A stretch of 64,000 nucleotides of DNA, taken from Kalaharituber pfeilii. Taxonomy: Eukaryota; Ascomycota; Pezizomycetes; Pezizales; Pezizaceae. The position numbers and the translations under genes are program-made. The stretch is from contig WHUZ01000091.1 in the NCBI GenBank assembly GCA_015179045.1, forward strand, positions 167,006 through 231,005, read 5' to 3'. The notes under the pieces were generated by a model. The model was not told where the DNA came from. It worked only from the letters and a program-made list of their open reading frames with translations, and did not search any database. Positions 30,148-54,900 of the stretch are shown here, piece by piece (position 1 is the stretch's first letter; each line of letters begins with the position of its first letter).

Positions 30148-30804
30148 TTAACTGGTATCTGCTGATCTCTCAGCCATCTTATCGTTCTCGCCGATATGAC
30201 TCCCGGAATTCTCGATTTTCAGGTCTTTCTCGATTCTTTGTAGTGACTCCTTCGTGTTAATGTCGAACATGACCAGCTCGACCATCCTGTTGTCCCAATC
30301 TACCGTTAGATGCAGGTGTCCCTCCCTTTCGGCCTTTTCCAACGGCGCCATCTTCCGAGGGCCTGTCTTGTGTGAGGTATCCTCGATGAGTAGAATCCTC
30401 TCCTTGGGGAAGTTCAGGTCCAGTACCGTGAATCTCACTTTGTATGGGGCTTCTGGTCCTAGGTTTTTGTTTATCCTGTCTCTCATCATCTTCTTGTGTT
30501 CGGTGAGGCTCCTCGCGGCCGGGTCCTCGTCAATCTCCTTCCAGTTTTGTGTGCCGACGATCCTGGCTTGCCATATTCTCTTTGCCAGTGGCGGTTTATT
30601 GCTCTCTGTCTTTTGCTGGTTTCCTCCCAAATTGCTCTCGTCCGGTGGAGGTGCTGATTTTTTTGTCTTGGGGCCTGTTTGCGGGTTCTTTTCGCTCGTT
30701 GTCGGCGCTGGGTGTGCGTGTTGCTGGGGGATGTTCACGGTGGCCGAATCCTCTTCCTTGTCATTCTGCTGTTGTGGTGTCTGCTGAACTGGTGTGACGG
30801 CTGG
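30148..30804 (-). pseudogene. ORF1 segment of the scrambled family A LINE
   Basis: The open stretch includes VNIPQQHAHPAPTTSEKNPQ, a Lys/Pro-rich linker, KRIWQARIVGTQNWKEIDED and GHLHLTVDWDNRMVELVMF. Across the insertion at 30819-31290 it continues with the segment at 31303-31500 (ending PPQNGEKAV), which shows the two were one ORF before the insertion. Probable role: RNA-binding ORF1 protein of the LINE. Confidence 0.6.
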
Positions 30805-30818
30805 GACGGCTTTCTCGC

Positions 30819-31225
30819 TTGGGAAAGGTGAAGGCGTGGCTGGAAGCCGCGAACCGGGATTTGGGAAGGATAACCGGGATTCGCTGGCTGAGGAGGAAGA
30901 CGATTTTGGAAGGGGAGGGCAAGAAGACGAGTTCGGTGGTGGTGTACTTGGACAAGGAAATGGAGGTTGACAAGGTGAGACTTAGCGGGCGATGGCTGAA
31001 GTCGGTCCGGTATGAGCCGGAGAGAGGACGGGAGTAGGGGATTGTACCGGGCGCCACCCGCGATAGTGAAGAGTCCGCGGGTATCACATGTAGTTAAGTC
31101 AGAACGGATAGTGGGGTTAGGATTGGTGTTTTTAGGCGGGAATGTTTCTGTTGTGGTTTTTTAACCTTCTTTTATTTATTTAGCATAACATCGCCATAGC
31201 CCTTAGGGCGGCATGCGATAAATGA

Positions 31226-31290
<65 letters not shown>
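30819..31290 (+). mobile_element. ORF1-only (half-LINE) element, copy H1, 5'-truncated
   Basis: Body: a 73-codon frame to 31037 (LGKVKAWLEAANRDLGRITG, IRWLRRKTILEGEGKKTSSV, WLKSVRYEPERGRE, stop), about 150 nt of 3' UTR, the family A hairpin in its ATCGC/GCGAT form (31192-31221) and about 60 A. A perfect 13-bp duplication, ACGGCTTTCTCGC (30806-30818 and 31290-31302), shows clean insertion into the ORF1 of an older LINE on the other strand. Confidence 0.9.
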
Positions 31291-31291
<1 letters not shown>

Positions 31292-31829
31292 GGCTTTCTC
31301 GCCGTTCTGTGGAGGCGCGGTGTTATGCTGGGGAGCGCTTTCACCGCCCTTCTTTGCCACCCTTGGCATGGCCTTTTTGTTGGCTCTCGCTTTACCTTTT
31401 GGGCCCTTTAGGTGGTGTTGTGATCTCCCAATCTCGTATTGTTGTAACTGAGCCTTCCATCCTCTCATCCTCTCTGGGGTTCCTTCGCTGCTTCGTATTG
31501 TTAGGTTAACGATGGCCGGTGTCGGTGTGGCTGGTTGTGTTAATGGGTGATGTTCCCCCTTTCTTCGTCCTAGTGATGGGAGAGAATGTATTAATAACCA
31601 TCACTAAGCGGAAGCTCGAAACGGTATCCTCCGCTGCTGGTACAATGGACGCGCAAAGAAGAGACTTTTTAGAGCCCGTCTCCTCCGTATAGCTTCTGCG
31701 CGAGTGATATGGAACTGCCCTCCCACGACAGCTCCATCCTGCCAGTTGAGTTCCGCTCCCGACAGTCGAATTCTTCTTAGCCCTTGACCCCAATACTTGA
31801 GAAAGCCGTAGCCACACTCCCACTAACTG

Positions 31830-34439: not shown

Positions 34440-35676
34440 TTCGTGGCTCGGCTGGGGGTGCTGGGAGGTGTTTGGAGGTCGGAGATCGCTGGAGGCAGGC
34501 CGGCGGAGGAAGGTGGGATAAATCCCTGGGTAGGTAAGGAGTACCTGGAGAACCTGGGGAAGAGGAAGAAGGTCTCAACATCCAGGTAACCGTGGTGGAA
34601 CGAGGATGTAGAGAGCGGAGAGTGTCCACTACCGCGGTAGCGTGCGAGGGGGCTAAGTGAATTTCCGGGACGAAGGGGAATGCCCTCGAGGGAAATATAT
34701 ACATGTTCTTCAATTGGAGGAATTCCCGGAAGTCAGTCTCTAGGAGTATGACATTATAAATAAATGAAAATCAAAGCCCATCAATCAGATGACCAAATCC
34801 AAGCCACTCAGACTTACCTAGCTCGCTGTCTTCCCCATAAAGTTATCGTGCAGTCCATAGCAACGTAAATGTAAAGCCGTACCGGAGCTCATCTGGATAG
34901 CTGTCATATGTATGACAAGCCCCGTTCCTTGGTCAGGGAATACATCCTTATGTGTACGTCAAATCGAAGCAGTTGGGCGAGAGCCCCCCAGAGCATTCAA
35001 ATTCCAGTAATCCTTGCTCCATTCTCAAGAAGTCTTCTTCGGCTAGTCTCGTGCCGTTCTTGTCTTGTCAAGGCAATCATGTTGTGCTTCGTCCCCTAGA
35101 CACAAAACTTTGGTTAGTTGGGAAAGAATGAAAGAAAACGGCCTGCGAAGGGGATTCTCTCGTTTACCAACCGTGTGTCGTGTCATCTGGTCGTGCTCCT
35201 CCGCTCTGCTCGTCTGCATTGGCGATCTCTGCGATATTCCGCTGATCTCCTCTCATCGTTCTGTCCTCCCCGATTCCCAAAGTTGCTGACGTGTATCCTC
35301 CCTCAGCCGATCGCTTCTTCAGCTGCCTCTTTTCGCGAATGAAAATTCGACACGTTAGCTGGTGTAAGACGTAAGTTGGTGCCCCAGTACTGGAATCCTG
35401 GATGGATGCCGCGACGCATGCGGGAGTGATCAGAGGCATCGTAGGCTTGGCAGCTGTCGTCGGCTACATGACACACAGCGAGCGGTAGAGCTGCATCATC
35501 ACGTACACAGCGGCCCCGACTTCAAATGAGACATTATATTCGAAGGACATATTTTCAACAAGTAAAGCTAAGTATATCACCATCTCACTGACAACCGACG
35601 ACACTGACTCATTTCAATTCACCCAACCGAATCCTCATTCTTACCCCAATTCTGGACCATACCATCCTCCCTGCCT
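34440..35676. other. Intergenic DNA; possible small gene on the minus strand at 35164-35439
   Basis: A minus-strand frame opens with MPLITPACVAASIQDSSTGA at 35439 and stays open for 91 codons to a possible donor (GTAAAC). A CTAAC branch and TCTAG acceptor lie about 60-75 nt on, after which only a few codons remain. This is suggestive of a short two-exon gene but far from proven. Nothing else was recognised. Confidence 0.25.
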
Positions 35677-36287
35677 TCCCGGCCATTGAGCCACAGACAA
35701 AGCCACCGGGGCTTAGCCCCATCACGTGCGTGGATACCCCACTAGAGGAGACAACACCGGAAGCCCTAAGCTTCCACTCCTACCAGCTACTCTCGGAGGA
35801 ACCCGTCCCCGAGAAGGCCCCACCAGCAACTTCGACCACGAAGAAGACAACTCCGAGGAGAAAAAAGACAAAGAGAGTAGGAAAAACCCCCCTCACGGTC
35901 GAAGAACGGGAGGTTCCCCCAACCCCCGCAACACCAGCACCAACCCCTGACTCGACACCCGCCCCTGCACCATCCCGCCCCCGCAATCAGACCAGGCACA
36001 CCAGCCGACCCTCTCCCCGAACCACGAAAGGCATCGTCATTCATGGCGTTGCACTCAGAAAGGATTTGGAGAAAGTCAGGAAATGGCTGGAAGAGGATAA
36101 TAAAGAACTAGGAAAGACGACCACGGGCATCAGATGGCTGAGACGAAAAACGACACTGGAAGAAGAAGGAAACAAGACAAGCTCCATAGTGTTGTATACG
36201 AAGACAAGAGTGGAGATTGGGAGAGTCAAACTTGGGGGGAAGTGGCTGAGATCGGAGGAATACGAGCCAAACAGAAGAAGGGAATAG
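35677..36287 (+). CDS. Partial ORF1-like protein of half-LINE H2
   Basis: The frame is open from the left edge of the element without an ATG at the edge, so the 5' end is probably truncated. The N-terminal half is Pro/Thr/Lys-rich (TPRRKKTKRVGKTPLTVEE). The C-terminal half holds GIVIHGVALRKDLEKVRKWL, GIRWLRRKTTLEEEGNKTSS and LGGKWLRSEEYEPNRRRE, then a stop. The last half matches H1, H3 and H4 and has the pattern of the RNA-binding core of LINE ORF1 proteins. The CCHC knuckles usual after this domain are absent; the stop falls at the same place in all four copies. Confidence 0.7.
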
Positions 36288-36414
36288 ACAGGCTCGGGAC
36301 CCCGACTCAAATACCATGTACTTAGGCTGCGTATTTTCTTTCTTTTAGTTAACTTATATACATCGCCATAGCCCTTAGGGCGGCATGCGATCAATGAAAT
36401 AAAAAAAAAAAAAA
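35677..36414 (+). mobile_element. ORF1-only (half-LINE) element, copy H2 (738 bp)
   Basis: The insertion is bounded by a perfect 13-bp duplication, ATCCTCCCTGCCT (35664-35676 and 36415-36427). It contains an ORF1-type reading frame open from its first base to 36287, about 75 nt of 3' UTR, the family A hairpin in the ATCGC/GCGAT form (36362-36391), TCAATGAAAT and poly(A). There is no endonuclease or RT sequence between ORF1 and the tail. Confidence 0.92.
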
Positions 36415-36524
36415 ATCCTCCCTGCCTGTTCCTCTCGAGAGTTCATACACGTCTGGGCTAAAGTAGCTATATACAGACCAACAGAGACATGTATATATAT
36501 GTGCACCCACATCCACATCACCAG

Positions 36525-36580
36525 CCCTGCCATGGAGAACAGCTGCAAGCGGGGTTATGTGATATAAAAAAAAAAAGAAA
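36525..36580 (+). mobile_element. LINE family B tail
   Basis: CCCTGCCATGGAGAACAGCT, GCAAGCGGGGTTATGTGATA and interrupted poly(A). No clear target duplication was seen. Confidence 0.75.
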
Positions 36581-36738
36581 CCTCCTACAAGCTCATCTAT
36601 ACCTCATCCCCAACTCAGCACAGCACCACACTCAAATCATCTTTGTCCTCTACCATCCACCTCCTACAAGCTCATCTATACCTCGTCCCCAGCTCAGCAC
36701 AGCACCACACTCAAATCATCTTTGTCTTCTACCATCCA
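36581..36738 (+). repeat. Tandem duplication, 2 x 79 bp
   Basis: CCTCCTACAAGCTCATCTAT...CTACCATCCA occurs at 36581-36659 and again at 36660-36738 with few differences, directly after the family B poly(A). Confidence 0.85.
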
Positions 36739-37040
36739 CACTCCTGTCGCCGTCGCCATCGTCGTTTTCTGGCAACCTCCTCCACTCCACCCCACAATCA
36801 CAGGAGCACAGTGGGATGGAGCGTGTTGTTGTTGTTGTTGTTGGAGGAGAAGCCAGATCCATGAACTTCGCATAGAGTCGAGGACATGAACAAAGATAGT
36901 ACAGGGTACATGAGACAACTTGAAGGCAAGAGAGACGAACAAAGGAGAAATGTCAAAGGAAACTCAAAACAAGATTGATACAAGCCTTCCCACCGATCTT
37001 CATTTTCTAAAGTACCGGGAACCTCAGAGTCCTGCAAGCT

Positions 37041-37781
37041 TCAGCCGGAGACACTTCTGGCGGCGCAGAAGCAGGCAGGGCAGGAGGCAGGCAGATTTCT
37101 CGGAGATATTCCCTGGGGCTCACGACCCAGGGGCACCCCGACTGCACAAGTGAAAAGACACATTGTTAGTCAAATCGTTAAATTGGCCAAGTCACAAGTT
37201 TCAGATAGAAAAACAGGATATGAAAGGAACACTTACGAATATCTTTGGCAGACTCATTTTGTGCGAGGTCTGTACAGGATGTTGCTGGTGGGTATCCAGC
37301 AAACAGAGCCCGTGTCCCTTACACAGAGAAACACATACCCCAAGAGGCGGCTCTTGTGCTTGTGTTAAACCTTCGACTTGTAGGATGCGAGATTCCGAAG
37401 AAATCATGGACTTGCGAAAAGGAACGTCTGCTATAGCTGCAGTTCATATACCCTGTCAGTCTCTTGCAAAAAATAGAAAAAAAAAAACAGTAGGATAAAA
37501 CTCACCATTGACTTCCAAGTCGCAGGAAAAAAGGGAAGGATGAAGATGAGGCGGTGATTAGGTTTCGAATAAACCACGCGCCACGTGAGAGAAAGTTCGA
37601 CGGGACCGGAGTCGAAGAGAAGTTCTGATTTAACTCCTCTAGCACTGACGTTCGATGAAGACCACGACGCAGACCGCAATGGTGTTTCTATTGGTATTGG
37701 AGGCTCCTCGATGAGGAATTGGAGGGGGATCGGAGGGTGAATTGAGCAGAGAAAGGCTGGAAGACTAGCGTCGGATTCCAT
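37041..37781 (-). CDS. Probable small four-exon gene, unknown product
   Basis: ATG at 37781 opens MESDASLPAFLCSIHPPIPL. Exon 1 ends at 37506 before GTGAGT. Three downstream exons have strong signals: 37339-37451 (acceptor GACAG, donor GTATGT), 37237-37269 (acceptor TACAG, donor GTAAGT) and 37041-37141 (acceptor TGCAG, stop TGA). Exons 2-4 share one open frame (phase 1 at both inner junctions; SRRSFSQVHDFFGISHP, then LAQNESAKDI, then LGVPLGREPQGISPRN). Exon 1 joins one base out of that frame, so either its donor is misplaced or the gene carries a frameshift. No domain was recognised. Confidence 0.4.
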
Positions 37782-37799
37782 CTTTTTCCAGCTGACCTG

Positions 37800-39550
37800 T
37801 GGTCGTGTACATTACCTCTGGTGTACATCATCATGGGGAATGGGTATAAAGTTCATGCATGCTTCGGGGATTAAGTCTGGTGTCTCGATGGAGTCTGAGG
37901 AGGGAACGAAAGAGAAGAGAAGGGATAGGAGGCATGGGTATTTAAAGGGCGTCTGTTTGCGCGATTTTATGTGCGCGTAGGGCACAGGGCTTATCCGCGT
38001 CGGCCTTGGCCGAGGTGTTTACGTAAAGATAATGGAATGTTGGGTGGCAGTGAGCTGTCACGTGAGTGGGAGATTGGTGGCGCTCACTGTCATTATCGGG
38101 GGTGGCTTTGGCGCCAGTGGAGTGGTGATGGTAACTTGAATAGGGGATCTTAAGGGACACCAAGGAACGTTCGGCGATGCCGGTGAACGACAGAAGAAAA
38201 GGTACATCCACGTTCTCAGTCGTCAATATACGGGCCGCTAATGTCCTAAAGGCTATTAGCCCCCTTGCGTCAGGAGACTAGTAATTATGAAAGTCATTCA
38301 TAACTGTCAGAGACCCGGGCAGCCAGGACAGACAAGGATAGCTCAGACCCGTTCATTACCTAAATATATTACCAACGTTCCTCCCTACGAGGGATCGAGG
38401 AATGAGCAGCCTGAGTGCACTACGTTATATTTGGTAGAATGAGGCTCGATTTTGATCGATTGAGGTATGTAGAAGAGAGTCTGTGTTGTTTATTTGTTCA
38501 TTTATTTGTTCGTTTACACACCCCTAATAGAGAAATCTTCGTTTTTTATGTTATTGTTAACTGTCAAGTCACGAAACCCGCATACAGCAAGCCCACGGCA
38601 GGACCACATATACAAAACTATCCATATACCTCCCTACGGGGGGGGCAGTGCAACCAGACTACCATATACCCAAGTCATTTACGCATATATTTTCCCTAGG
38701 TAAAGGGTCTCCTCTTCCACGGGCCCGCACACTGCTGGGCTATGACCGGGCACGAGTGATTCCCCGTCGTCAAGGAAGCTCAGTACGTACGGACAAAAGT
38801 CAAAACCAAAAAAAAAAAAAAAAAAAAAAGCAAGGTCTACAAACGTTATGGCCTACGACCCTCACTAGTGGGAAACATATTAAGCTACTTACAAGAGGGG
38901 GATGGAGTCAAGGTGAACGGAGTGTCGTTTGAGTAAGTAATTAACACGCGGGCAAATGGGTCAGTACAGACTTCTAAATAACTTATTTAGGCTACTGGGG
39001 GATTTTTGAGTTGTTGATATGTCGACCGCCGCCTCGTGCTTCGATCCAGCGACTGGAAGGCTATTTTTTTTTTTATCATTACTTGAAGGTACCTTGATGG
39101 CTACGGAGAGGTGACTGAAAAGGTACAGTAGTCGAACGATTGATTGTGGAGAGACGATATCCAGGTCAATCTCGAGAATCTGCATGTACGGGACGTTGGC
39201 ACTGGTAAGTTGAGATAACCTAAATATCATCTGTCCACGACTTATAATTTTTTTCTTCGTCTAGGGGGGGGTGGTCATGTACCTCCGCATACAGCCTATT
39301 AACAAGGAGGTGAGATGGATCGAGAACGGAGATGTATTGGGCGGAGGCGGTTACTGAGCTGTTATCTTTACCTCTAATTGATTTGATATTATTAGCTTGT
39401 CCTCCTACTCCAGTCAGAAATTTCCACCGGAGATGGGCGAAGAAGAAGGGGATCCATTCGGGGACTCATGAGGTGGATAGAACATTAGGGTGGGAGCGGC
39501 GCTACTCAGACTTAAACTTTGTATTCAATTTTCCTATTACATTTCTCTCT
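37800..39550. other. Intergenic DNA with one degraded LINE tail
   Basis: A minus-strand family A tail remnant lies at about 39064-39110 (ATCATTACTTGAAGG...GGCTACGGAGAGGTGA after a T run). A poly(A) at 38811-38828 has no recognisable body. No gene was recognised. Confidence 0.45.
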
Positions 39551-39554
39551 TTCT

Positions 39555-39625
39555 TTTCAGATTTATGTACCTAACCTCGCCATAGCCCACAGTGCGGCAC
39601 GCGAGCAGAAAAAAAAAAGAAAAAA
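39555..39625 (+). mobile_element. LINE family A tail
   Basis: ATGTACCTAAC, then CTCGCCATAGCCCACAGTGC, GGCACGCGAG and poly(A). It sits immediately upstream of another family A insertion whose target duplication begins in its 3' flank. Confidence 0.75.
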
Positions 39626-39643
39626 TCAGTCAGAAATTGCGCT

Positions 39644-40409
39644 GGACAGGACAGAAGGAGAGCTGCTCATCCTCACGGACTCGAAGTTTGCGATTTCCAA
39701 AATGTCTGCCATTGCGAGGGGACTCCCAACCCCGGAAGGGGTGACTCAACGGCTCAGAGAAGTGTGGCAAAGAAGGTTCGAGAAAGGAGACAGAGACATA
39801 ACCGTGATGTGGGTCAAAGGCCACAAAGGCATACCGGGAAATGAAGCAGCAGACATGGCGGCGAGAGTGGGCACGGCGCTGCAGTGTGCACCGGAGGTGG
39901 TGACGGAGGCAGGACTGAGACAAGAGGCGAAATGGGAGAGAGCGTGGGAGAGGAGCAGACTAGGACTGACATTTCGGCCTCTACAGAGACTCGGCACACA
40001 GGTGACACGATTGGCGGGCCTATTGGGGGCGAAAGGGCTGCGGGCATGGAGACATCGCATAGGGGAGGCGCCAGACCCGGGGTGCAGGTGGTGTGGGGAG
40101 GCGGAAGAGACCACGAGACACTTACTTGAGGATTGCAGGGTGTGACAGAGAAGACGGCCCGGGGGCATGGGGGCGATACGTCAGCCCCCCAAACCCGGGG
40201 AAGGGGAAGATGACCCGCTGCAGGGGCTGATGGAGATGCTGGGGGAGGACGGAATGAGAGATGGAGCCACGCATTCATTTCCATGTACCTGACATTTTGC
40301 TGTTTATTCTGATTCTTATGTCATACAGTCATTTACATGTACCTAAATAAAGACCTCGCCATAGCCCATAGGGCGGCAAGCGAGTATTGATATAAAAAAA
40401 AAAAAAAAA
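39644..40409 (+). mobile_element. 5'-truncated LINE family A copy (766 bp)
   Basis: Flanked by GTCAGAAATTGCGCT (39629-39643) and GTCAGAAATTGCACT (40410-40424), a 15-bp duplication with one mismatch. It contains the end of ORF2 to 40145: LLILTDSKFAISKMSAIARG, MWVKGHKGIPGNEAADMAAR and CRWCGEAEETTRHLLEDC. The 3' UTR ends with the CTCGC/GCGAG hairpin and poly(A). The RNase H active-site Asp residues in the retained part are present. Confidence 0.92.
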
Positions 40410-40568
40410 GTCAGAAATTGCACTGCTAGTGTAAAAACGCATCACGACATTACATTGTGGGATCACATCTTGCCGCCATGCCTTCGTCGTATCTTGACGC
40501 CACAACGTTGCACTACTGACAGGAAAAAACAAACAATGGATGCGAATCTACTTGTTTTATACACGGAC

Positions 40569-40604
40569 TTTTTTTTTTTTTTTTTTTTTTTATATCATTA
40601 CTCA
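40569..40604 (-). mobile_element. LINE family A micro-insertion (13-nt body)
   Basis: The minus strand reads TGAGTAATGATAT plus about 23 A. The flanking 14-bp duplication TTTTATACACGGAC (40555-40568 and 40605-40618) is perfect. Confidence 0.92.
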
Positions 40605-40619
40605 TTTTATACACGGACC

Positions 40620-41790
40620 GAAGGCGCTCATCTTGGACAGCTATCAACACCAGTACAGCCGTCGAGCGGGGTATAAACATCAACCGCTGCAGCTAATTCA
40701 TATCAGTAGCCTCGATTCAACAAAAACTGTAAGGGTGGGATTGGGTTGGAGTGCTGATTAGCCACCTACAGGGGACGCACCAGCATGCAGAGGTAGGATG
40801 GTTGGTGGAAATGATGGCCACAGCAATCAGGGGCAAAAGAGAGATCGAGAATGGGCTCACCGCTGCTGTTTGCGAGAAGCTGTGTTGTTCTATTGGTGGA
40901 GTTGGACTCGGGAGTGGAAGGAACAAGCTAAGTACCTACAGTTTTTGATCTGAGGTGAGAAGGAGAGCAACGGGGAGACAAGGGAGGAGGAGGGAGGAGG
41001 GCTTTGGAAGATGAAGAAACTTTGACGCCGATAGTGTTCTGAGTCGCAGGAACATCCAACTATGAGCTGCTCATAGCAAAGCAATCTCTACACGCTTATC
41101 CACAATCGCCTCAGTTTCCTGTTCCTGTCGATGTAAATTAGTCTCTTCGACGCCTATACATGCCCAAGTTGCAGTGTGGATCTACTCGACTATTTCATAC
41201 ACAATGAACCCTAGACTTCTGGGCGACAGCAAGGATAGGAAGGGGAGATGGGGAGAGAGTGCATCTAAACTAGTACACGGTGACTCTTTGGAAATATTGG
41301 AGTGCTAAATTGGCGAGGGAGTTAATGCTCTCTTGTGGGATGAGGGCGGCGGTTGACATAGTATTATCTCCATTAAATTTCAGGGAATTATGTGTACTGA
41401 TAGCAGCAGTGGTAGACGATAGCAGGCTGAGTGCACATTATTTCAACAAGACTTATGAGGGGGCATTGGTTATGGGACCGCTGAGTACGCACGGGGGTTG
41501 CTGGGGCTTTTGATGGATGGGAGAGGCCGCCGGAAAGCACGGGACAAGCGGACCCATCCAATTGTCCGGTACAGTTGGCTGCTAGGCGTGTAGCAGAGGT
41601 GGTGCGTGGGGCGTGCTCTCGCAAGTTGATATAACACCTAACTATCTAAAACAGACAAATTCTTGCATTCGCAAGCTCGAAAGAATTCACGCTGTGCATC
41701 ATCTAATATAACGGATATAATAACCTCTCCCAGTGGCTATTCAACTACGGCGACTTCGAATTTGATTTAGCTCCTCGAAGGCTTTGGTTG
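40620..41790. other. Intergenic DNA, nothing recognised
   Basis: Short open frames only; no splice-consistent gene or element ends. Confidence 0.4.
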
Positions 41791-41801
41791 AGTAAGGGGG
41801 C

Positions 41802-41851
41802 TTTTTTTTTTTTTTTTTTTTTTTATCATTTGATCGCATGCCACCCTATGG
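41802..41851 (-). mobile_element. LINE family A tail (50-bp insertion)
   Basis: The minus strand reads CCATAGGGTGGCATGCGATC, AAATGAT and poly(A). The duplication GAGTAAGGGGGC is perfect (41790-41801, 41852-41863). The 5' arm of the hairpin is missing. Confidence 0.9.
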
Positions 41852-41999
41852 GAGTAAGGGGGCATATCCAGCAATGAGAGCAGGGAAGCAGGGGTTACGT
41901 GGGTGAGGCACTGAGCATTGACCTATTAGCAAGGAGGTGACAAACAAGGGGTAAGTACTTGGGGATAAAAGGAGAGGGGGAATGCTTCTGGCTAGTGAG

Positions 42000-42686
42000 T
42001 GTAACACTTAATCTAGCTCACAGGGTTCTCGAATTCGGATATGGAAGATTATTCGTTGCAGCGGAACAATAGGTGGTGCAGAAGGATAACCCAGTGGAAA
42101 AGCAGCGGAAGAAAGCACTGGACTCGTCGTGTATTTGAGCAAGGTTGCTAGGTATGATAAACAACTTGGGAGTGGGGGAACGGGAGTAGAGTCGCTAATC
42201 ACGTGAGTGTGGTACTATTCTAGTCAATTGTGGCGACGCAGAGGCATATTGTGGGAGGCAATCGTGAAATTCTCCTTACTAATGCTGAGAAAGCTAGATA
42301 TCTGATATCCAATGGCTTCAACTCCGAAAGCGCTGGGTTGTGATCTACTTGGGAAAATATTTGGATCTTGTACACACGCCAGGACGATTCAAAATGAGGC
42401 AAGCTACTAAGTACTTTATTTTCATTGTTAGGCTGGTGCTTGCCGAAGGAGGGAATGATCGCCGCACACGTCTTCATGCGAACTACACCGAACACGCGGA
42501 GCATTCGCTGGTGGGACCTCTTTAGGTGGGAGCACGTAAGAAATACTACTTTTCTCCCCCTTTTTCCTCAGAATATTTTTTAATTTTCTTGAATTTTTCG
42601 ATATCTTTTCGGGTATTTGTATTTGCTGCGCTTACATAGCGCATCCACTTTGTCTCTCGCATACCAAGGGCGGCACGCGAGTAATG

Positions 42687-42725
<39 letters not shown>

Positions 42726-43540
42726 TCTCTCGCATTTGCATTCTTTCGCGCCCCCTGATGCTAAATATTTTATCCCAATTTATTTCTTTGGCTACGTATA
42801 CGTTTTGCTTATGCAACTATCCAGTCTCCGCATAAGACTAACTTGCTAACTTCAGATCGGTGCGACAAGCGGTGGGCGGCTTTACTAGACTGGGGACAAA
42901 CTTATAGTTAATGTTTGCGCGCACGAGTGGTCAACTTAGAGGTGTCAGCAGGGGAGCTTAAATCCCCGCATAAAGCTAGTTTAGATTGCGCGACAAGGGG
43001 CAGACGCTATTACTCGAGTGGGACAGATTGTACTTAGTTTCCAGGTGCGTGAGAGGGGTTCTACAAATATGCCAGCAGGGAAGAAGACAACTCAAACTCG
43101 GAACAAAGTTCCGATGGGTATGGGATTTAGGAATAGGGAATTCAAATAAATTACCCACAGGTCAATCGGTGCTAAATGGGGAGGAACATCGCAACATCAT
43201 ACATTATGGGTTGGATTCGGTCAAGGCACTGTGTAACACCATAATTCACACGCATATCGACATACATAATTTCCAACAGCATATCCCAGAATGCTGGATA
43301 CCATGAACAGCTAACTTAATTTCTTTCTTCTACAGAAATGTGATACTTGAATTTTTGCGAAACAACGGCTGAGCATGCACCTTGGCCTTCGTTTCCGGTA
43401 GGAATGAAGGAAGAGCCAGCTGAATTGCGTTGCAGCGAAAGCAGTCCTGCAATTCTACAAAACTGGATTCACTCTTTAGGCAAAGGTATTCCAGAGTAGA
43501 TGTTTCTACAGCGACTGTTCAGGGTAACGTGAACTAGTTT
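42000..43540. repeat. Segmental duplication, copy 1
   Basis: It shares ordered blocks with 44250-45385: CTATTCTAGTCA...GACG...GAGGCATA / GCGGAAGCATA; GCGACAAGCGG(T/G)GGGC(G/A)GCT; CTGTTCAGGGTAAC(G/A)TG. Most differences are transitions. This copy carries its own family A insertion at 42663-42721. It also has an internal second version of the GCGCGACAAG block at about 42987. Confidence 0.5.
42663..42721 (+). mobile_element. LINE family A tail (59-bp insertion)
   Basis: ACCAAGGGCGGCACGCGAG, TAATGATATT and about 30 A, with the perfect 14-bp duplication TTTGTCTCTCGCAT (42649-42662, 42722-42735). The target itself contains CTCGCAT, close to the CTCGCCATA start of the hairpin, so the 5' join probably used microhomology. 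Confidence 0.92.
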
Positions 43541-43546
43541 TTGAGG

Positions 43547-43547
<1 letters not shown>

Positions 43548-43587
<40 letters not shown>

Positions 43588-43990
43588 CAGTACTCGCATG
43601 CCGCCCTGTGGGCTATGGCGAGGTGTATATTTGAGAAGAAAAAACAAAAACTAACTGATGCCTAAATACATGTGGGCCCCGCGGATCTCGTGTGTGATGC
43701 GGGGGTCAATACGGCCTACTTCCTCCGCCTGTCCGGCTCGTATTGAGTGGTCCTCAACAGCCTCCCTCCCAACCTGACTCTGTCTATCTCTTTCTCCTCC
43801 TCCAAGTACACCACGACCGAGCTTGTCTTCTTGCCCTCGGCTAACAGCTCAGTCTTGCGTCTCAACCACCTTATCCCCACGGTCTTGCCCAGTGTCTTAT
43901 TCCCAGCCTCCAGCCACTTCCTCACCTTTCCCAAGTCCTTCCTTAAGGAGATTCCGTGTACGACGACGCCGGCTTTCGAAGTGGTGATGG
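43548..43990 (-). mobile_element. ORF1-only (half-LINE) element, copy H3, 5'-truncated
   Basis: On the minus strand the insertion opens in frame (ITTSKAGVVVHGISLRKDLG), continues to VGIRWLRRKTELLAEGKKTS and RLLRTTQYEPDRRRK, and stops at 43716. The 3' UTR ends in the CTCGC/GCGAG hairpin and about 35 A. A short duplication, TTTGAGGC (43540-43547 and 43991-43998), flanks it. Confidence 0.88.
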
Positions 43991-44027
43991 TTTGAGGCTG
44001 TGGGGAGGGGCGGGGGGTTCGTATTTT

Positions 44028-44084
44028 ATCGCAATAGCCCGTAGGGCGGCCAGCGATTAATGATATTAAAAAAAGAAAAAAAAA
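44028..44084 (+). mobile_element. LINE family A tail (ATCGC/GCGAT stem)
   Basis: ATCGCAATAGCCCGTAGGGC, GGCCAGCGAT, TAATGATATT and interrupted poly(A). It lies 30 bp from the 5' edge of H3. No clear duplication was seen. Confidence 0.75.
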
Positions 44085-44249
44085 CTCCTGTCGATATTGA
44101 CTCCTGTGGAGCTTTGGGACTATGACTATGACTATACACTGCTAACATGCGTGCGTTTAGAAACACCTCTCGCCTACCCCCGTTCATCCGCCGCCGCCCC
44201 TCATCGCGCGACAGCCGTCCTCCTAGGACGTCCGCCATATATTTAAGCG

Positions 44250-45385
44250 TAGTGTCCAAGGTAAGTTCTAGACAGGCGTGGGGGTATGGAAGTGGGGATT
44301 TAGTCACTAATCCACTGAACGTGCTTCTATTCTAGTCATTCTGACGAGGCGGAAGCATACGTAGGAAGCAACTGAAATTCTATATTATGCTCTTCACAAG
44401 TCGGGATAGGGATAGCTCCAACAGCATATACAGTATGCTTTATGAAATTATGATTTTGGCAATAATCCTTCAGTACTCTGTCCATCGCAGCGTCATCTAA
44501 ACCAATATTGATCTAAACGAGGCAAGATACCAAACCTGAATAGGTGGTGACGGATATTAATGCCCAATGCTTTTTTTAAGCTAAGATTTGCACAGTGGAA
44601 GGGAATGTTACTACCAGAAGGAAAGCCCTTATGCAAACTCGCAGTGAGCATGTGGAGACTTAGTTGCTGTAACCGGTTTTAGGTAGAGGTGTGTAAGAGA
44701 AGTCTGTTTCTTATCTTGTCTCTTGCATAGTGTTTACATATCATGATTTATTTTGCTAAATATATTTGGACCTATTCTTCGGCTGTATGCACCTTATCCA
44801 GTCCGTGCATAACGATAACTTACCTTTGCGCGACAAGCGGGGGGCAGCTGTACTTGAGTCGGGACAAGGTTAGAGTTGATGTTCACGCACCAGAGGTCAA
44901 ATCAAAGACCTCCGCGCCCTGCCATGGCGAACAGCTACAAGCGGGGTCACGTGAAATAAAAAAATAAAAAAAAAAGACCTCCGCAATGAAGCTGAAGAGG
45001 ATGATTGCGAAACTGTGCCTGAAAATACAGATGGTATGAACTTGAATGTGAAGTCATCCAGTATATTAACCTCCGCCGAAACGGCAGTGCACACGGAGGA
45101 ATGTGGGAATTTCATGCTGGGTGGGGGGGGTGTTGGTCAGGGTAATGTTGATTCTCCGTCATACAACAATACCATGAGCATATTTCTGGATGCTTGGCGC
45201 GATTGACAGCTAAGATGACTTCCTACAGCAGCAACTACTAAAATACCTGAATTTATAGGAAAAAAGAATGAATTGAGAATGGGATTTAGCCCTATTTCCC
45301 CGGTACGATTCAGAAAAAAGCAGTCCAGGGATTTAACTCAGTCAGCGTACTCACCTTGGGTTGCTGTTCAGGGTAACATGCTTTT
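44250..45385. repeat. Segmental duplication, copy 2
   Basis: Diverged partner of 42000-43540 with a different private insertion (family B tail at 44916-44973). No coding potential was recognised in either copy. Confidence 0.5.
44916..44973 (+). mobile_element. LINE family B tail (58-bp insertion)
   Basis: Starts GCCCTGCCATGGCGAACAGC, contains GCGGGGTCACGTGAAAT and ends in poly(A). An 11-bp duplication, AAGACCTCCGC, flanks it (44905-44915, 44974-44984). Confidence 0.92.
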
Positions 45386-45787
45386 TTAATGTGCATGGGT
45401 TTAGATACATTTCTCTCCTCCATCCATTGACCAGACACCCCCCTCACCCCACTACCGACCTCCCCCCAGGATGTAATGTTCTGGATCTTGTCTCCTTCCT
45501 CCGCCTTCGCCGCCAGCCATCGTCTTCACAGAAAGCTTTTGTAGGTCGTTTCCATTCCTCTTCAGCGCGTCGTACCCATAAATCTAAACCTGAGTGCCAG
45601 ATAGTGTTGAGCGCGGGGGGCATATAGCGATGATGAGAAGGGGACAGATTTTCGATTTCTGAATGAGGGAGGCGTAGAGATGTGCAGGCGAATTCTGTCA
45701 GGGGGGCCTACCCATCCGAGGGGGTATCCACAGATAACTTATGGTAGTGACAGGATGGCGAGGTGATGATGAGAGATCATGACCCAC

Positions 45788-45845
45788 TTTTTTTTTTTTT
45801 TTTTTAATATCAATACTCGCAGGCCGCCCAGAGGGCTATGGCGAG
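45788..45845 (-). mobile_element. LINE family A tail containing the complete hairpin
   Basis: The minus strand reads CTCGCCATAGCCCTCTGGGC, GGCCTGCGAG, TATTGATATT and poly(A). The duplication CATGACCCACTT (45778-45789, 45846-45857) is perfect. The insert begins exactly at the first base of the hairpin. Confidence 0.92.
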
Positions 45846-45965
45846 CATGACCCACTTGTTGTCAGCACTCAACGTCAGATAGAATAATGCAAGGAGTGAC
45901 TCGCTGGATAGAAGGCCTACGTAGAAGCCGGAGAATGGCCCCATGAGGGGGTCAAGGTCAAATAT

Positions 45966-46024
45966 CCCTGCCATAGGCTTGTAACTTGTATGCGAGGTTA
46001 TGTGAACCAAAAAAAAAAAAAAAA
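45966..46024 (+). mobile_element. LINE family B tail
   Basis: CCCTGCCATAGGCTTGTAAC, TTGTATGCGAGGTTATGTGA, ACC and poly(A). The duplication AAGGTCAAA flanks it. Confidence 0.8.
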
Positions 46025-46208
46025 GGTCAAACCAGTTCCCTAAGTTACACTTTACAATTTGCTGCATATGGTAGCTACCGTAACAAATTCGTCACTACGT
46101 AGCCCTTTTGTTGGTATACATGGGCGAAGGTAAGGCCTCACGGACCCTGATCTTCAGCAATGCCTTAAGAGGACACAAAACGAGCACCACAACTCGCACC
46201 TCTGATGC

Positions 46209-47621
46209 TTTTTTTTTTTTTTTTTTTTTTTTATATCATTACTCGCGTGCCGCCCTGGGGGCTATGGCGAGATTAGTTACATGAGATTAGATACATATGA
46301 AGGTAGAAGAAAAGGAATAAGAAAAGATCCTGTGTGTCTCCTATGCCCCTGCCCACTCCAAGATGTCTCTTAGTGGGTCTGTGTCCTTGCTCTTCGGAGG
46401 AGTGACCAAGTCTTGCATGCCTCCTGGCCACTTTCGTTTCCATGTCCTGCACCTAGTGAGCACATGTTCAGTAGTCTCCTCCTCCTCCTCACACCATCGA
46501 CATTCTGGGCTGTCTGCTTTCCCGATTTCGTACTGCCATTTCCGTAGTAACTTGCCGCCCAGTATTCCTGCTAGTGTGGCTATGTGTCGACTTCCAAGTC
46601 TTGTCGAGGGACGGTAGCTGAGCCCTAGCCGGTTTCTCTCTGTGGCGCGCTGATGTCTCGAGGTTTGTCGTATCCCATCTTCTGTTATGGTTTCATCTTG
46701 GTAGGGGAGGCATGTGCCTATTTTCGCAGCTGTGTCTGCCTCGGTGTTCCCTTTGACTCCTATATGGGACTTGACCCACATCACTGCAACGTCCCAGTCA
46801 CCTCGGTCTGTTCTCGCTTTCCAGGCGTCTCTAACCAGTTTTGCCGGTCCTTTGTGGGTGGGCTCTCCCTGGGCGATCTTTAGGAGCTTGGATATCGATA
46901 CCTTAGAGTCGGTTATGATCAGGAGTTCCCCAGCTTGATTGCGTAATGCTTCGCTCATGGCAATGAGTTCTGCATCATTGACAGTAGTCTGTTCCCCTAG
47001 GTATGTGGATGTAGAGGTGTCTTTTGCGTAGGTGCCTAGGCCTGTCTTGTAATCTATCCTGCTCCCGTCAGTGTAGACGGAGTTCCACCCCTCGTCCTCG
47101 GCATTGGCTATGGCATTCTCGAACTCGAGCTTGTCTGCGTCCGCAGGTAGTGTTGGTAGGATGGCTAGTGGTAAGGGGTTGTTGTGTGAGAGAGACCCCC
47201 GTAGGTACCTGCACTCATTATCCCTGTTTTGGATTATCTCATCGTGGAACCGTAGGGCCCTGGCTTCTACCCTCTGGCGCTCTCCTTCTAGGAATGTTTG
47301 GGCTGATTCTAGGTTGGCTATTCCTTCGACTACGTCTCGCCTGGTACCCCACGGGGCTGCAGTAATCTTCTGTGCTACTGTGTATTGCCATTTTTCTATG
47401 TCTTTGATCTTGGTTGCTGGTGGAGACTGTCTTGAGTAGTCCTGCCATGCCCAGCATCCCCATGTGGCGATTGTGCGTGCGATGCTTGTATGTATCTGTC
47501 GTTTTTTGCCTGGTGTGAGGCGAGTTAGTCTCGAAGCCACTCCCCATGCTGCCTTCCCGAGAGGTAGTCTCTTCTTATGATGTCGAGTAAATTTTAGCTC
47601 CCAATCTACCGTCAATCCGGT
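46209..47621 (-). mobile_element. 5'-truncated LINE family A copy (1413 bp)
   Basis: A perfect 12-bp duplication, CACCTCTGATGC (46197-46208 and 47622-47633), bounds the element. Its 3' end (plus-strand left) is poly(A) and the CTCGC/GCGAG hairpin. It keeps one long open frame from the truncation point, so it may be a recent insertion. Confidence 0.95.
46341..47621 (-). CDS. LINE family A ORF2, C-terminal part: RT thumb, RNase H, zinc finger
   Basis: About 427 codons, open throughout and starting at the truncation edge. The first ~190 residues are the region after the RT palm (ARTIATWGCWAWQDYSRQSP; EGERQRVEARALRFHDE). An RNase HI domain follows with all four acidic positions visible: VYTDGSRID, NDAELIAMSEAL, LLIITDSKVSISKL and MWVKSHIGVKGNTEADTAAK. 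The C-terminus has SPECRWCEEEEETTEHVLTR, a C-x2-C-x7-H-x4-C finger, then KWPGG. In the intact element this protein would degrade the RNA strand during target-primed reverse transcription. This copy cannot act alone because the endonuclease and RT palm are missing. Confidence 0.85.
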   Translation of the reverse strand, partial: TGLTVDWELKFTRHHKKRLPLGKAAWGVASRLTRLTPGKKRQIHTSIARTIATWGCWAWQDYSRQSPPATKIKDIEKWQYTVAQKITAAPWGTRRDVVEGIANLESAQTFLEGERQRVEARALRFHDEIIQNRDNECRYLRGSLSHNNPLPLAILPTLPADADKLEFENAIANAEDEGWNSVYTDGSRIDYKTGLGTYAKDTSTSTYLGEQTTVNDAELIAMSEALRNQAGELLIITDSKVSISKLLKIAQGEPTHKGPAKLVRDAWKARTDRGDWDVAVMWVKSHIGVKGNTEADTAAKIGTCLPYQDETITEDGIRQTSRHQRATERNRLGLSYRPSTRLGSRHIATLAGILGGKLLRKWQYEIGKADSPECRWCEEEEETTEHVLTRCRTWKRKWPGGMQDLVTPPKSKDTDPLRDILEWAGA

Positions 47622-47689
47622 CACCTCTGATGCATTGGGAGTGCACGCCGCTGGGGATTCGGATACGCTTATTAGCCTGATTTAGGAAA

Positions 47690-48090
47690 GGGCTAAATTA
47701 ACGTTGATATGCATATCCCTATCTATTTTCCCTAACTCATGCTCGTTGGGAAGACTGCTGGGTGGAAAAGGATCAAGGGCATGGAGGCATATGATAGGGA
47801 AGGCAGATGGGCCAGAGTCAAGATAGAAGAGGAGACATCTGCACACGTCTCGCCCAGGTGCGAGGTCTGGAGGACGAAGTGACCAGCGGGTCTGGAGGTA
47901 ATGAGGAGGCCCACAGCGAACAGCGAAAATGACCCAGAACCTCTGGTAGAGCTGCTGAGATGGGTAAGGAGATGACATTGGAGGACACCGCATTTTTTTG
48001 TTTTGATTTTTCTTGTTTTTACTTCCTTTGTATTTAATCTCGTCATAGCCCACGAGGCGGTATACGAGTGCTGCTATTTAAAATAAAAAA
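47690..48090 (+). pseudogene. Old LINE family A 3' end
   Basis: It retains diverged text matching the zinc-finger and 3' UTR of the copies at 39.6 and 46.2 kb (AGGTGCGAGGTCTGGAGGAC; GGTAGAGCTGCTGAGATGGG). The tail has decayed to CTCGTCATAGCCCACGAGGC, GGTATACGAG and A-rich sequence (48039-48090). Confidence 0.6.
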
Positions 48091-48312
48091 TACTCATTCA
48101 TCGTCTCGTGCTCCCTTGTAAAGTCTATATACTATGGTTGAGGACACTAATACAGGCCTTTTTTTGTTTTTTTTTTGGCCTCCTCACCCTTCGTTCCCCA
48201 GCCCCCTACCACACGGAATACCACACCTTTCGCTCCTATGTTATACGGAATACTGGGGCTCTTGCTTTTCGCTTCCTCCCGCCTTTACCTCACATAATAG
48301 TGCGCCTTTCGC

Positions 48313-48885
48313 ACGGTATATAGACACGCCACCACCGCGCGCCACAACACCACAGAAGACCGGAAGACGACACCCCCTCCCCCGGCCTCATCCGGACCTA
48401 CGACATCCACAAGGACGAAGAGGAAGACAAGACAAGGAAAGACGACACCCTCTCCGGTCCCGAAATCAGCTGGCACCCCTCCGGCACCAGCCCCAGCCAC
48501 CCCCACCCACACGGCTCCGGCTCCGACACCAGCCCCAGCCACCCCAACGCAGCCACAACCCCGTAGCACCCCGCCAAAAGACACCAAAAAGGATACCCCG
48601 CCGACCCCGCAGACGACGAAAGCCAAAATCGGACTAGTCATACACGGCGTTGCCTTGAGAAGGGAACTGGGCAACGTCAGAAGATGGCTGTCCGAGGACA
48701 ATAAAGACATGCCAAAGATCACCGGCATCAGATGGCTAAGAAAGAAAGACATACTGGTCGGAGAGGGGAAGAAGACAAGCTCCGTAGTTGTATACTTGGA
48801 GGAAGAAATAGGCAAGGACACGGTGCGACTCGGGGGGAAATGGCTCAAGGCGAGTCAGTATGAGTCTGAAAGAGGACGGAGATGA
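48313..48885 (+). CDS. Partial ORF1-like protein of half-LINE H4
   Basis: The frame is open across the element (about 190 codons) and probably lacks its true start. The N-terminal part is Pro/Thr/Ala-rich with basic clusters (TSTRTKRKTRQGKTTP). The conserved part reads GLVIHGVALRRELGNVRRWL, GIRWLRKKDILVGEGKKTSS, VVVYLEEEIGKDTVRLGGKW and KASQYESERGRR, then a stop. It agrees with H1-H3 in both the conserved core and the stop position. Probable role: RNA-binding and chaperone part of ORF1p, without zinc knuckles. Confidence 0.7.
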   Translation, partial: TVYRHATTARHNTTEDRKTTPPPPASSGPTTSTRTKRKTRQGKTTPSPVPKSAGTPPAPAPATPTHTAPAPTPAPATPTQPQPRSTPPKDTKKDTPPTPQTTKAKIGLVIHGVALRRELGNVRRWLSEDNKDMPKITGIRWLRKKDILVGEGKKTSSVVVYLEEEIGKDTVRLGGKWLKASQYESERGRR

Positions 48886-49046
48886 AAGATTCAGGCTGCT
48901 GACCGCTCTCCCCGCAACACCTCCTAAAGACCGCGGGCCTCATGTACTTAAGACAGTTTTTGTTTTGATTTTGTTTTAGTTAACTTAAACCCTCGCCATA
49001 GCCCATAGGGCGGCATGCGAGTAATGAAAAAAAAAAAAAAAAAAAA
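48313..49046 (+). mobile_element. ORF1-only (half-LINE) element, copy H4 (734 bp)
   Basis: Bounded by the perfect 13-bp duplication GTGCGCCTTTCGC (48300-48312 and 49047-49059). It has an open frame from the first bases to 48885, about 100 nt of UTR with a T-rich stretch, the CTCGC/GCGAG hairpin (48992-49021), TAATG and poly(A). It is almost the same size as H2 although the 5' sequences differ. Confidence 0.93.
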
Positions 49047-49059
49047 GTGCGCCTTTCGC

Positions 49060-51727: not shown

Positions 51728-51926
51728 CAAAGACTTTGCGAACAGGTGTTAAATCGGCCGATCGGCAGCAGACGACGACCAAGAATAGAAAGCGAGCTAG
51801 ACGGCAGACTACCTTCGATTTTGGAATAGCGCACAGAGCTGCTCCCAAAGCGGCGACTTCCCGAAAAAGGGAAGTTACAATAGGAAGGCAGGAGAAGGAA
51901 GACAGGAAGGAGAGGAAAGGAAAGGA

Positions 51927-54900
51927 ATGTCGGTAGAAGGGGGAAACCCAAGGCTGGAGTTCCTTGGACCGGTGGGGGATCGGTGGACAGGGGAGGTTTT
52001 TGTCATTGACAGAAACGAAGTTTGGGGCATCGATGAGGTGCATAAGTGGGAGAGAAAGGAGTGGTGGCTGGCAAATGTGGGAGAGGTAGGGGATGTCATG
52101 ACGGTGAAGGAGAGAGTGGAGAGGGCGTGGAAAAAGGGAGGAGAATACGATGGGCAACTCGATATGATCGAGGAGCTGAGGAAGGATGCGGTTGAGGCAG
52201 CACAGAGGAGAGGGGTGCCGGAGGTGAGCTGGGTAAAGACTGAGGAGCTCAGGAGCATCACGGACGTGGCAGAAGTGGTGCAGGTCTGGAGTGAAGACGC
52301 GGCGATGTTTAGGAAATATAAGGATGGAGCAGATGGGATAGAGATACAGAAGGAAGTGGAAGTTCTAGACAATGCAACGCGGGAATGCATTGTGGTGAGC
52401 AGGGGGCCCCAGGTAGTTTTTGCGAGACAGCAGGAGACTCCGAGGACCACCAGGGTCATGATGAGTTGGGGGAGGAGGGGGGGCGAGAGAGGGAGGGACA
52501 GGAGTAGGAGCCCATCCCCGTGTGATGGCAGGGGGAGGGGAGCGAGCAGCGGGGGGACCTTGGAGATCCAGGACTCCCAACCGGAATATGGACCGGTAGT
52601 GCCGAAGGTGGACCTGCCGGTGGTAAGAGAGGAGGAGGGGGAGGAGGAGGAAGAAGACGAGGAAATGGGAGAAGAGGAAGGGGAGATGGAGGACGGGGAA
52701 GGGGAGGATGAGGAAGTCTCAGGGGAGGAGAGCAAGGGGGAGGAGGAAGAAGGGGGAGCTTTGGAGGAGGGGGCGAAGGAGGTTCTAGCGCTCATGCACG
52801 CAGCACAGGTGCTAAACAGGAGGGGAGAAGCACTGGGGAAGGAAGGGAAGAAGGGTCATCAGAAGGCGGTAAGAGAGGTGTGGGAGAAGGTAGGAGCAAT
52901 CTTGGGGACAGAGGTCTTCGAGAAGGGATGGGGGGAGCTGAGAGGAAGGGTGGGGAAAGGTGACACGGCTTTCGAGTATCATCGGAGGTGGAGGATGACG
53001 GGGAGGGAGGTAAGTAGCTGGAAGGAAGAGGCGAAGGCAGTTAGAAAGGGGGTGAGGGAGAAGGCGGAGACGGAGACACAGGAGAGGTTAGGGGCGTTGG
53101 AGAGGATGGTGGTAGAAATGCACGTGGCGATGGGTCTGGCATCAGGAAAGGAAGAGAGGAAGCTGGAGAAGGAGAAGAGGAGGAGGGAGGAGGAGAAAGC
53201 CGAGGAGGAGAGGAGGAGGAAAAAGGAGAATGAGATCCGGGAGATACGGAAGTGGCAGGAGGAGCAGGAAAAGAAGAAGAGGAGGGAAGAAGAGAAGCAG
53301 AAGGAAGCGGAGGTAGAAAGCCGGAGAAAGATTGAGGAAGAAAGGAAGGTAGTAGTGAGGAGGGTGGAGGTTCTGAAGAAGGTGACGCAGGTGGTAGGGA
53401 CACCGGGGAGCTCACAGGAAGAGCTCAAAGAGTTGGAGGAGGAGGAGAGGAAGCTGAAGAAGGAGGCGGAGCAAGCGGCAAGAGAGGCTGAGAAGAGAAT
53501 TGAGGGGGAGAACTGGACGATTGTGAAGGAGAGGAAGTTGTGGAAGAGGATGCTGAGGACCGTCCACAAGGCGGCGGTGCCTTTTGGAAAGGAGGGGACG
53601 GAGGAGAGAAACATCCTCATGAAGAGGTGTGAGTCTCTCTGGGAGGCAATGGGGAAGGGAACGGAGGAGAGAGGGTGGAGGATAGCGAGGGTAGAGAGGA
53701 ACCCGGCAGCATCCAAGTTCGAGAGGACTTGGTTCCTGGTGGATATAGAGGAGAAGGAGAGCCAAAGGGAGGTGATGGAAAGGTTTGGTGCATGGATGCG
53801 CCTCATCTTTGGGGAGGACCTCGTGAGGGTGGAGGTCCACAACAAAGACGCGGTCCCTCTGGTGCTGAAGGGGGTTGATTATGAGGAGGGGACGGAGGAG
53901 GTGGAGAAGATGAGGAGAATGCTGAGGGAGAAGAATCCAGACGTCAAGTTCGGCTCGAGACCACCGGTACGTTTTGGCGCTGTCCCACTCATGGGGAAAC
54001 CAAGAGTTTCCCAGGTAAAGTTTGAGGTGGTGGACGCGGACGAGGCGGTGAAGGTTTTGAAGAAGGGCCTGGTGTGGAGAGGAGTGAGGAGGGCGGTAGA
54101 GAGATACAAGCCAGGAGTGCATGTGCAGGGAGATGTGCGAGTAAGCTACGCCAACATGGCGGCAGCAGCAGCGGCGGGGCAGCAGCAGCAGCAGAGGCAG
54201 CAGGGAGGAGGAGTGGCGGCAGGGGGGGGGTACCCAGTGGGGGTACAGGTGGTGCATCCAAGCATGGGTTTTGGAGCACCAGGGGCGGGAGTGCAGGTGC
54301 AGGTAGCTGGGACGCAGGCGAGCAACCAGGGGAGCCTGAGCCAGGGGACGGTTTGCTACAACTGCGGGAAGAAAGGTCATTTAGCAAGAGAGTGTAAGTT
54401 GAAGAAGGGGGTGATGACCTGTTATTGTTGCGGAGGGTGGGGGCACATTGCAAGGATGTGCATGGAGAGGCCAAAACCGGTCACTCCAAATCAAAGCCAG
54501 AAGAGGGAGAGGGTGGAGGAGACTCCGATGAAGAAGAAACAGGAGGAGGGGAGTAAGGCAGTGAAAGTGGAGGGGGGGAAGGGGAAGGGGAAGCAAGCGG
54601 AGGCGGGGGGGAAGGGGGAGGTGAAGTTTTCGGGAGTCCTGTCAGAAGACTGGGATGCGAAGGTGAGAGCTTTGGAGCTGGCGGAGTGGATGAAGGAGAG
54701 GAGAGGAGGAGAGAGGATGGATATGGATGACAGAAGGGACATGGCGGGGTCTATGCATGCACCGGGGGTGAGGTTGGGAGATATTTTCGGGGACGGAGGC
54801 CTGCTTGATGAGGGTGGGAAGCAGAGAGCAGCGGGGTACCCAGACCAGTATGGTGAAGGTAGGGTACCAGAATGTTGGGGGATCGTCGGTGGGGGGGCAC

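Follow-up and report, generated by a model that had tools for sequence, protein, structure and literature searches.

Hundreds of copies of a hitchhiker element in a desert truffle apparently encode their own RNA-binding protein and borrow the copying enzyme of a LINE

How does a short insertion that carries an open protein-coding frame and the 3' end of a retrotransposon, and no copying enzyme, come to multiply and to keep its frame? The question is raised by a stretch of 64,000 nucleotides from the desert truffle Kalaharituber pfeilii (GenBank assembly GCA_015179045.1, contig WHUZ01000091.1, positions 167,006 to 231,005; C352 among our contig handles), hereafter the window. An initial annotation made from the window alone had described four such insertions as one propagating lineage that retains only the first open reading frame (ORF1) of a resident long interspersed nuclear element (LINE), family A, in analogy to mammalian HAL1. 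Searching the assembly (78.0 Mb, 360 contigs), we found that the four window copies are 5'-truncated members of a complete element of 1.27-1.41 kb. There are apparently hundreds of copies of this hitchhiker, which would encode its own RNA-binding protein while a LINE lends the copying enzyme.

All four insertions are present in the window with the same architecture: an open frame closed by the shared stop, then 78-156 nt of spacer, the hairpin and poly(A) (Table 1). The frame of copy 2 closes on YEPNRRRE (the other ends are given in Table 1), and the stop-to-hairpin distance is 156, 78, 97 and 110 nt in copies 1 to 4, respectively. The target duplications of 13, 13, 8 and 13 bp are as first described; they were read by eye, a script having recovered only parts of that of copy 1 and none of that of copy 3. 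The tail 12-mer TCGCCATAGCCC matches the window 21 times at up to two mismatches, compared with 4.3 expected and a maximum of 10 in 100 shuffles. All four window copies are taken to be 5'-truncated because the 17-base leader motif of complete copies has no window match at zero or one mismatch (there is one at two and one at three). Contig C68 holds a copy 97% identical to copy 2. Copy 1 splits a LINE copy with ORF1 and endonuclease fragments (28800-31600, minus strand), whose frame resumes past the insertion with EKAV on both sides by way of the target duplication.

The full 5' end, sought outside the window, was found as a leader of about 250 nt. Between target duplications the full element spans 1.27-1.41 kb at loci L003, L014, L017, L018-L020, L029 and L037, and it consists of the leader, one frame of about 260-360 codons, a short 3' untranslated region (UTR), the hairpin and poly(A). 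The leader motif CAGGACGAGCGTTTGGAAGC occurs 381 times in the genome at up to two mismatches, its reversed control not once. The leader folds into conserved hairpins, with an alifold energy of -27.8 kcal/mol for 19 rows as compared with -10.8 +/- 3.2 for 100 column shuffles, and with z values of -4.2, -3.1 and -1.7 for single-sequence folds. Among 18 distinct leader copies (20 rows, two copies being counted twice), the first ATG lies at least 226 nt past the leader start in 17, the exception being L073 at 14 nt. It opens straight into the frame bearing the conserved core in 11 of the 20 rows; in the other nine the end of the sequence is reached, the copy is interrupted or the frame breaks. At L018, L020 and L073 extra bases (ACATCCCC; more in L073) stand 5' of the common leader start, where transcription may have begun slightly upstream or bases may have been added without a template. 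A leader-only or autonomous class was also considered, as 25 of 40 leader hits had no listed frame hit, and was rejected: the two of these that were read, L074 and L075, carry the same frame in more diverged form, and the shortfall of frame hits therefore at least partly reflects which matches were listed.

Separate deletions within family A could have left unrelated ORF1 stubs ahead of the tail; the tail family is the same and LINE copies are many in this genome. We surveyed the 3' sides of 42 copies, comprising 30 loci (the best 30 of 150 listed rows, with one window copy among them as L009), the three further window copies, L073-L075 and L077-L082. The stop leads directly to hairpin and poly(A) in 38 of the 42 (36 by script, with copy 1 and L035 added, the latter by eye), over a gap of about 64-156 nt, or of 33-39 nt where the frame continues beyond the usual stop (L013 and L026). 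Four copies are interrupted: the cut lies within the hairpin in L012, an inverted element has inserted into L025, L031 continues into unrelated DNA after the stop, and L075 is broken in the frame and nonetheless ends, by eye, in a tail with its own duplication GCATGTTGAGCGC. No surveyed copy runs continuously into an endonuclease or reverse transcriptase (RT). When two LINE ORF2 proteins were compared by tblastn with the 0.2-2.6 kb downstream of the 42 copies, a same-strand match appeared only in L012, where family A ORF2 from residue 55 (98.7% identical) lies past the cut hairpin, some 1.06 kb downstream of the core; the ORF2 matches near L013, L014, L019-L021, L030 and L075 are on the opposite strand. 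Among the matches listed, 2 of 150 frame hits have an ORF2 hit (98 listed) at most 8 kb downstream on the same strand, and both (L077 and L078) reach hairpin and poly(A) before any ORF2. Counted by eye, 18 of the 150 frame hits listed have a stop within the match, which in some cases is the regular stop reached a few codons sooner. The plan of the junction is thus common to nearly all copies surveyed and the element, as first described, lacks endonuclease and RT. Diverged copies agree in leader, start, frame, stop and junction, and neither blastn nor a plain comparison of profiles identifies the protein as the LINE ORF1, so that an origin in separate deletions is exceedingly improbable.

The ORF1-only copies themselves serve as source and move. 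Over 1,380 nt, L018, L019 and L020 differ from one another at 1-6 positions, although their flanks are unrelated and their target duplications different. L020 starts with 22 nt identical to L018's 5' flank plus target duplication and continues with L018's own junction. This 22-mer is not unique, being found at 24 places in the genome (L018 and L020 included), and belongs to a host repeat of which L076 is a sibling with an empty site. Because the junction lies exactly at L018's insertion point and L076 is empty, the source of L020 was L018 or an identical unsampled insertion. The host repeat entered by L018, with CAGCAGCTCTAATACTCTCTTC, lies at C168:624046 and 23 other places (24, that at L020 being the copied piece). 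L077, L078 and L080 likewise have near-identical 3' ends at different sites. Together with the common junction, the passage from L018 to L020 bears out one propagating, non-autonomous ORF1-only lineage. Target duplications measure 11-14 bp at 24 of 30 loci, with an additional one of 22 bp within a tandem repeat; for family A they were found at 2 of 30 loci, plus the window copy and L071/L072, too few for comparing target preference. The base ahead of the duplication is C in 17 of 20 ORF1-only loci, which may reflect a preference of the endonuclease; among 4 LINE sites it is C in one, or in two when an ambiguous A is assigned to the duplication.

Passive retrocopying by LINEs of a host gene, or of an effector-like family derived from LINE ORF1, would also spread such frames, and the available part of one source describes how truncated LINE ORF1s became a large fungal gene family, EKA (PMC4641428). 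However, full-length copies begin at one leader, the motif of which recurs throughout the genome, and carry the LINE hairpin; the source of L020 was an insertion lodged in a different repeat; and, by eye, N-termini such as MPKGKKK do not suggest secretion. We regard retrocopying of this kind as improbable.

Structural modeling suggests that the frame ends in a domain resembling the RNA recognition motif (RRM), behind a proline-rich N-terminal half: the model of the core has a pLDDT of 80 and its best matches are RRM proteins. A second, more variable conserved block in that N-terminal half, W...AALW....P..G..L.I.F, is visible by eye in L018, L021, L070, L074 and P0003. Pfam yielded no family for two full-length proteins and, for 16 cores, only six families, each at an E value of 0.056 or worse and in one or two members; zf-CCHC was hit in none of these proteins and cores. 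The stop falls a few codons past the core in most aligned rows. It had been placed just before the position where CCHC knuckles would follow; the common stop is confirmed, whereas the knuckle position stays conjectural, as the core resembles a local LINE ORF1 only weakly by profile. Searching the PDB by sequence gave a single match at an E value of 0.93. Three queries of a protein database each returned a single K. pfeilii protein, which does not show species restriction because transposon proteins are patchily covered there.

Purifying selection acts on the RRM-like core. The ratio of nonsynonymous to synonymous rates (dN/dS, omega) in the final maximum-likelihood fits is 0.112 (GY) or 0.122 (MG), and pairwise dN/dS is 0.12-0.15 where dS exceeds 0.25. 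Correspondingly, pN/pS is 0.24 in the coding frame as compared with 1.03 and 1.49 in the other two forward frames. Even where dS rises above 0.8, dN/dS remains close to 0.12, so that the frame has been maintained through prolonged copying. Were the protein a bystander, leader and tail would suffice for movement and the frame would survive through the youth of the copies. Leader copies with a broken frame do exist (L073 and L074), but the low dN/dS at such distances and the lack of this signal in the other forward frames make a bystander protein quite unlikely. The proposal that the protein matters in cis is borne out as to selection on the frame, and its action in cis stays an inferred one.

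To ask whether the element is half of a resident LINE, we compared it with two LINEs. One of them, made up of L071 and L072, is flanked by a 15-bp target duplication and reads open throughout ORF1 (1,056 codons between stops) and ORF2 (1,095 codons, encoding endonuclease, RT and RNase H); it shares its tail with the ORF1-only element. L069 is a family A LINE with a 1,098-codon ORF2 frame and an ORF1 open only at its end. In blastn of the full L018 and three leaders against both, the tail alone matches, with 93% identity over 76 nt to L071 and 86% over 59 nt to L069. A tail is thus shared with the LINEs, whereas the leader and most of the protein find no match; derivation from family A is not borne out, and the tail of L018, the one copy compared, is nearer to the L071-type LINE than to family A. 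By eye the tail mostly reads AATGAAATAAA in ORF1-only copies and L071 and AATGATATAAA in family A, whose form is also carried by window copy 1 and L074. Across 34 distinct 30-mers, pooled from LINE and ORF1-only copies, the hairpin is preserved, with paired changes from C-G to A-U and from C-G to U-A. At 39411-40440 (plus strand) a hairpin copy consisting of the tail alone is immediately followed by a truncated LINE copy; GTCAGAAATT flanks the pair on both sides and also separates the two, by eye a case of nested or successive LINE insertions.

For the protein, no usable result came from comparing a profile of the core with LINE ORF1 sequences one at a time. Against a small LINE ORF1 profile, hhalign scored 16.8, compared with 10.3 +/- 2.2 for 200 column shuffles, two of which scored as high, and 7.7 for the reversed profile; the margin is small because another part of LINE ORF1 reached 13.7. 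The core would accordingly resemble, weakly, the last RRM-like stretch of LINE ORF1, and the encoded protein would not be a LINE ORF1, save possibly for a distantly related RRM-like domain. A different LINE in the window (51801-58457, plus strand) has a 1,048-codon ORF1 frame, two CCHC knuckle matches and, by eye, RT-like pieces in several frames; a stretch of its ORF1, LVLKGV...ERYKP, is shaped like the ORF1-only core and receives no support from hhalign. The element could be a true half-LINE by descent, in which a LINE bearing this leader and ORF1, now extinct or simply not sampled, lost endonuclease and RT by deletion and kept 5' end, ORF1 and tail, as HAL1 did from L1, so that the working would be the same and the origin different. 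In its favor, the core aligns collinearly with the final RRM-like segment of the L071/P0004 ORF1, which precedes the cysteine-rich end of that protein, and the profile score stands above nearly all shuffles. However, no LINE with this leader was seen, blastn against the two LINEs returned the tail only, the profile margin is small, and the two listed frame hits near an ORF2 end in their own tails first. We hold this descent to be a real possibility, if a somewhat less than even one.

Taken together, the element is probably a non-autonomous, protein-coding LINE parasite of about 1.3-1.4 kb, built like a short interspersed nuclear element (SINE), with a protein that would act in cis. Its RNA would comprise the structured, nearly always ATG-free leader of about 250 nt, the frame for the RRM-type protein, the short 3' UTR, and the LINE-type hairpin with poly(A). 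The common hairpin and poly(A) and the target duplications suggest mobilization by a LINE enzyme: LINE ORF2 protein would bind the tail and, through target-primed reverse transcription, copy the RNA in trans. The element's protein would bind in cis the RNA that encodes it, in the manner of LINE ORF1 proteins, and package it or hand it to the LINE enzyme; cis action is suggested because selection could hardly keep the frame if the product were shared by all RNAs. The element may descend either from an unsampled LINE or from a SINE-like RNA with an acquired ORF1. On a broader view, to which we give about an even chance, a SINE-like RNA that had acquired an RRM protein of its own, or else an ORF1 that had retained one, became a long-lived and diversified LINE parasite with a cis-acting ORF1 protein and structured leader, stealing ORF2 through a copied hairpin, its subfamilies possibly tracking the tails of different LINE subfamilies.

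Such an element would be a natural split of the two halves of a LINE, with the ORF1-type protein from one element and the enzyme from another. If the RRM protein acts in cis and ORF2 in trans, the role of an ORF1 protein and its preference for its own RNA become testable in a compact 1.4-kb system. It would be a fungal ORF1-only lineage with signs of recent movement and long-term selection; literature titles and abstract openings reveal no ORF1-only lineage in fungi, which is no proof that none has been described. The window features are collected in Table 1; the window also holds, by eye, a Copia-like pol fragment at 63365-63943 (minus strand).

Table 1. Positions of the four ORF1-only copies and a comparison LINE in the window.
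Feature	Position	Strand	Remark
Copy 1, 5' target duplication ACGGCTTTCTCGC	30806..30818	.	by eye; repeated at 3' end
Copy 1, 5'-truncated ORF1-only element	30819..31289	+	nested inside antisense LINE ORF1
Copy 1, open frame	30819..31037	+	end YEPERGRE, stop
Copy 1, tail hairpin	31190..31219	+	
Copy 1, 3' target duplication	31290..31302	.	
Copy 2, 5' target duplication ATCCTCCCTGCCT	35664..35676	.	
Copy 2, 5'-truncated ORF1-only element	35677..36414	+	
Copy 2, open frame	35679..36287	+	RRM-like core (about 36030-36275) and stop
Copy 2, tail hairpin	36362..36391	+	
Copy 2, 3' target duplication	36415..36427	.	
Copy 3, 5'-truncated ORF1-only element	43548..43990	-	
Copy 3, 8-bp target duplication GCCTCAAA	43991-43998 and 43540-43547		
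Copy 3, open frame	43716..43990	-	end YEPDRRRK, stop
Copy 3, tail hairpin	43593..43622	-	
Copy 4, 5' target duplication GTGCGCCTTTCGC	48300..48312	.	
Copy 4, 5'-truncated ORF1-only element	48313..49046	+	
Copy 4, open frame	48313..48885	+	end YESERGRR, stop
Copy 4, tail hairpin	48992..49021	+	
Copy 4, 3' target duplication	49047..49059	.	
Family A LINE, 5'-truncated (ORF2 end with RNase H, tail hairpin, poly(A))	46209..47621	-	comparison element outside the ORF1-only family; outer limits per initial annotation

Several known systems share parts of this design. HeT-A of Drosophila lacks an RT and borrows one; it is telomeric, and its Gag has zinc knuckles. The truffle element differs in being dispersed, with ordinary target duplications and no knuckle by Pfam. 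HeT-A is a Gag-only element without long terminal repeats, for which the available part of the source gives 5' UTR, Gag and 3' UTR coordinates (PMC3357415). In Blumeria, the LINE Satine and the EKA family present very many copies built on LINE ORF1 sequence, degenerate and co-opted as effectors, and the part of that source available to us does not describe EKA as an ORF1-only mobile lineage (PMC4641428). The truffle element is such a lineage. A peptide-coding element of barley powdery mildew, which we take to be Eg-R1/ROPIP1, is a further fungal case. As far as the source is available, it is a non-autonomous retrotransposon coding for a virulence peptide (PMC6022598). The likeness lies in a fungal, non-autonomous, peptide-coding element; neither an RRM protein nor a shared LINE tail is met in that part of the source.

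SINEs are short, non-coding and usually derived from RNA polymerase III transcripts, and in the UnaL2/UnaSINE1 pair the RT recognizes the tail hairpin. In tail-sharing SINE/LINE pairs, according to the portion available, the parasite takes its 3' end from the partner LINE (PMC3747384). The truffle element likewise has a partner-LINE 3' end (the L071 match, with compensatory hairpin pairs) and no RT, and unlike a SINE it encodes a conserved protein (omega 0.11-0.12). Rfam, applied to L018 800-2400 for a 5' end of tRNA, 5S or 7SL type, gave three matches, all far below the gathering score. HAL1, in the available part of its description, is non-autonomous, encodes ORF1 protein only and arose several times independently (PMC5753468). 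The truffle element resembles it in being non-autonomous, with an ORF1-type protein only and no endonuclease or RT. However, HAL1 is an L1 derivative, whereas the truffle element shares only the tail (59-76 nt) with the LINEs compared, its leader and most of its protein being foreign to them. The analogy drawn initially therefore holds for the working logic of an ORF1-only lineage and fails for descent from the helper LINE: on the evidence here, the element appears HAL1-like in logic, not in descent, and built more like a protein-coding SINE.
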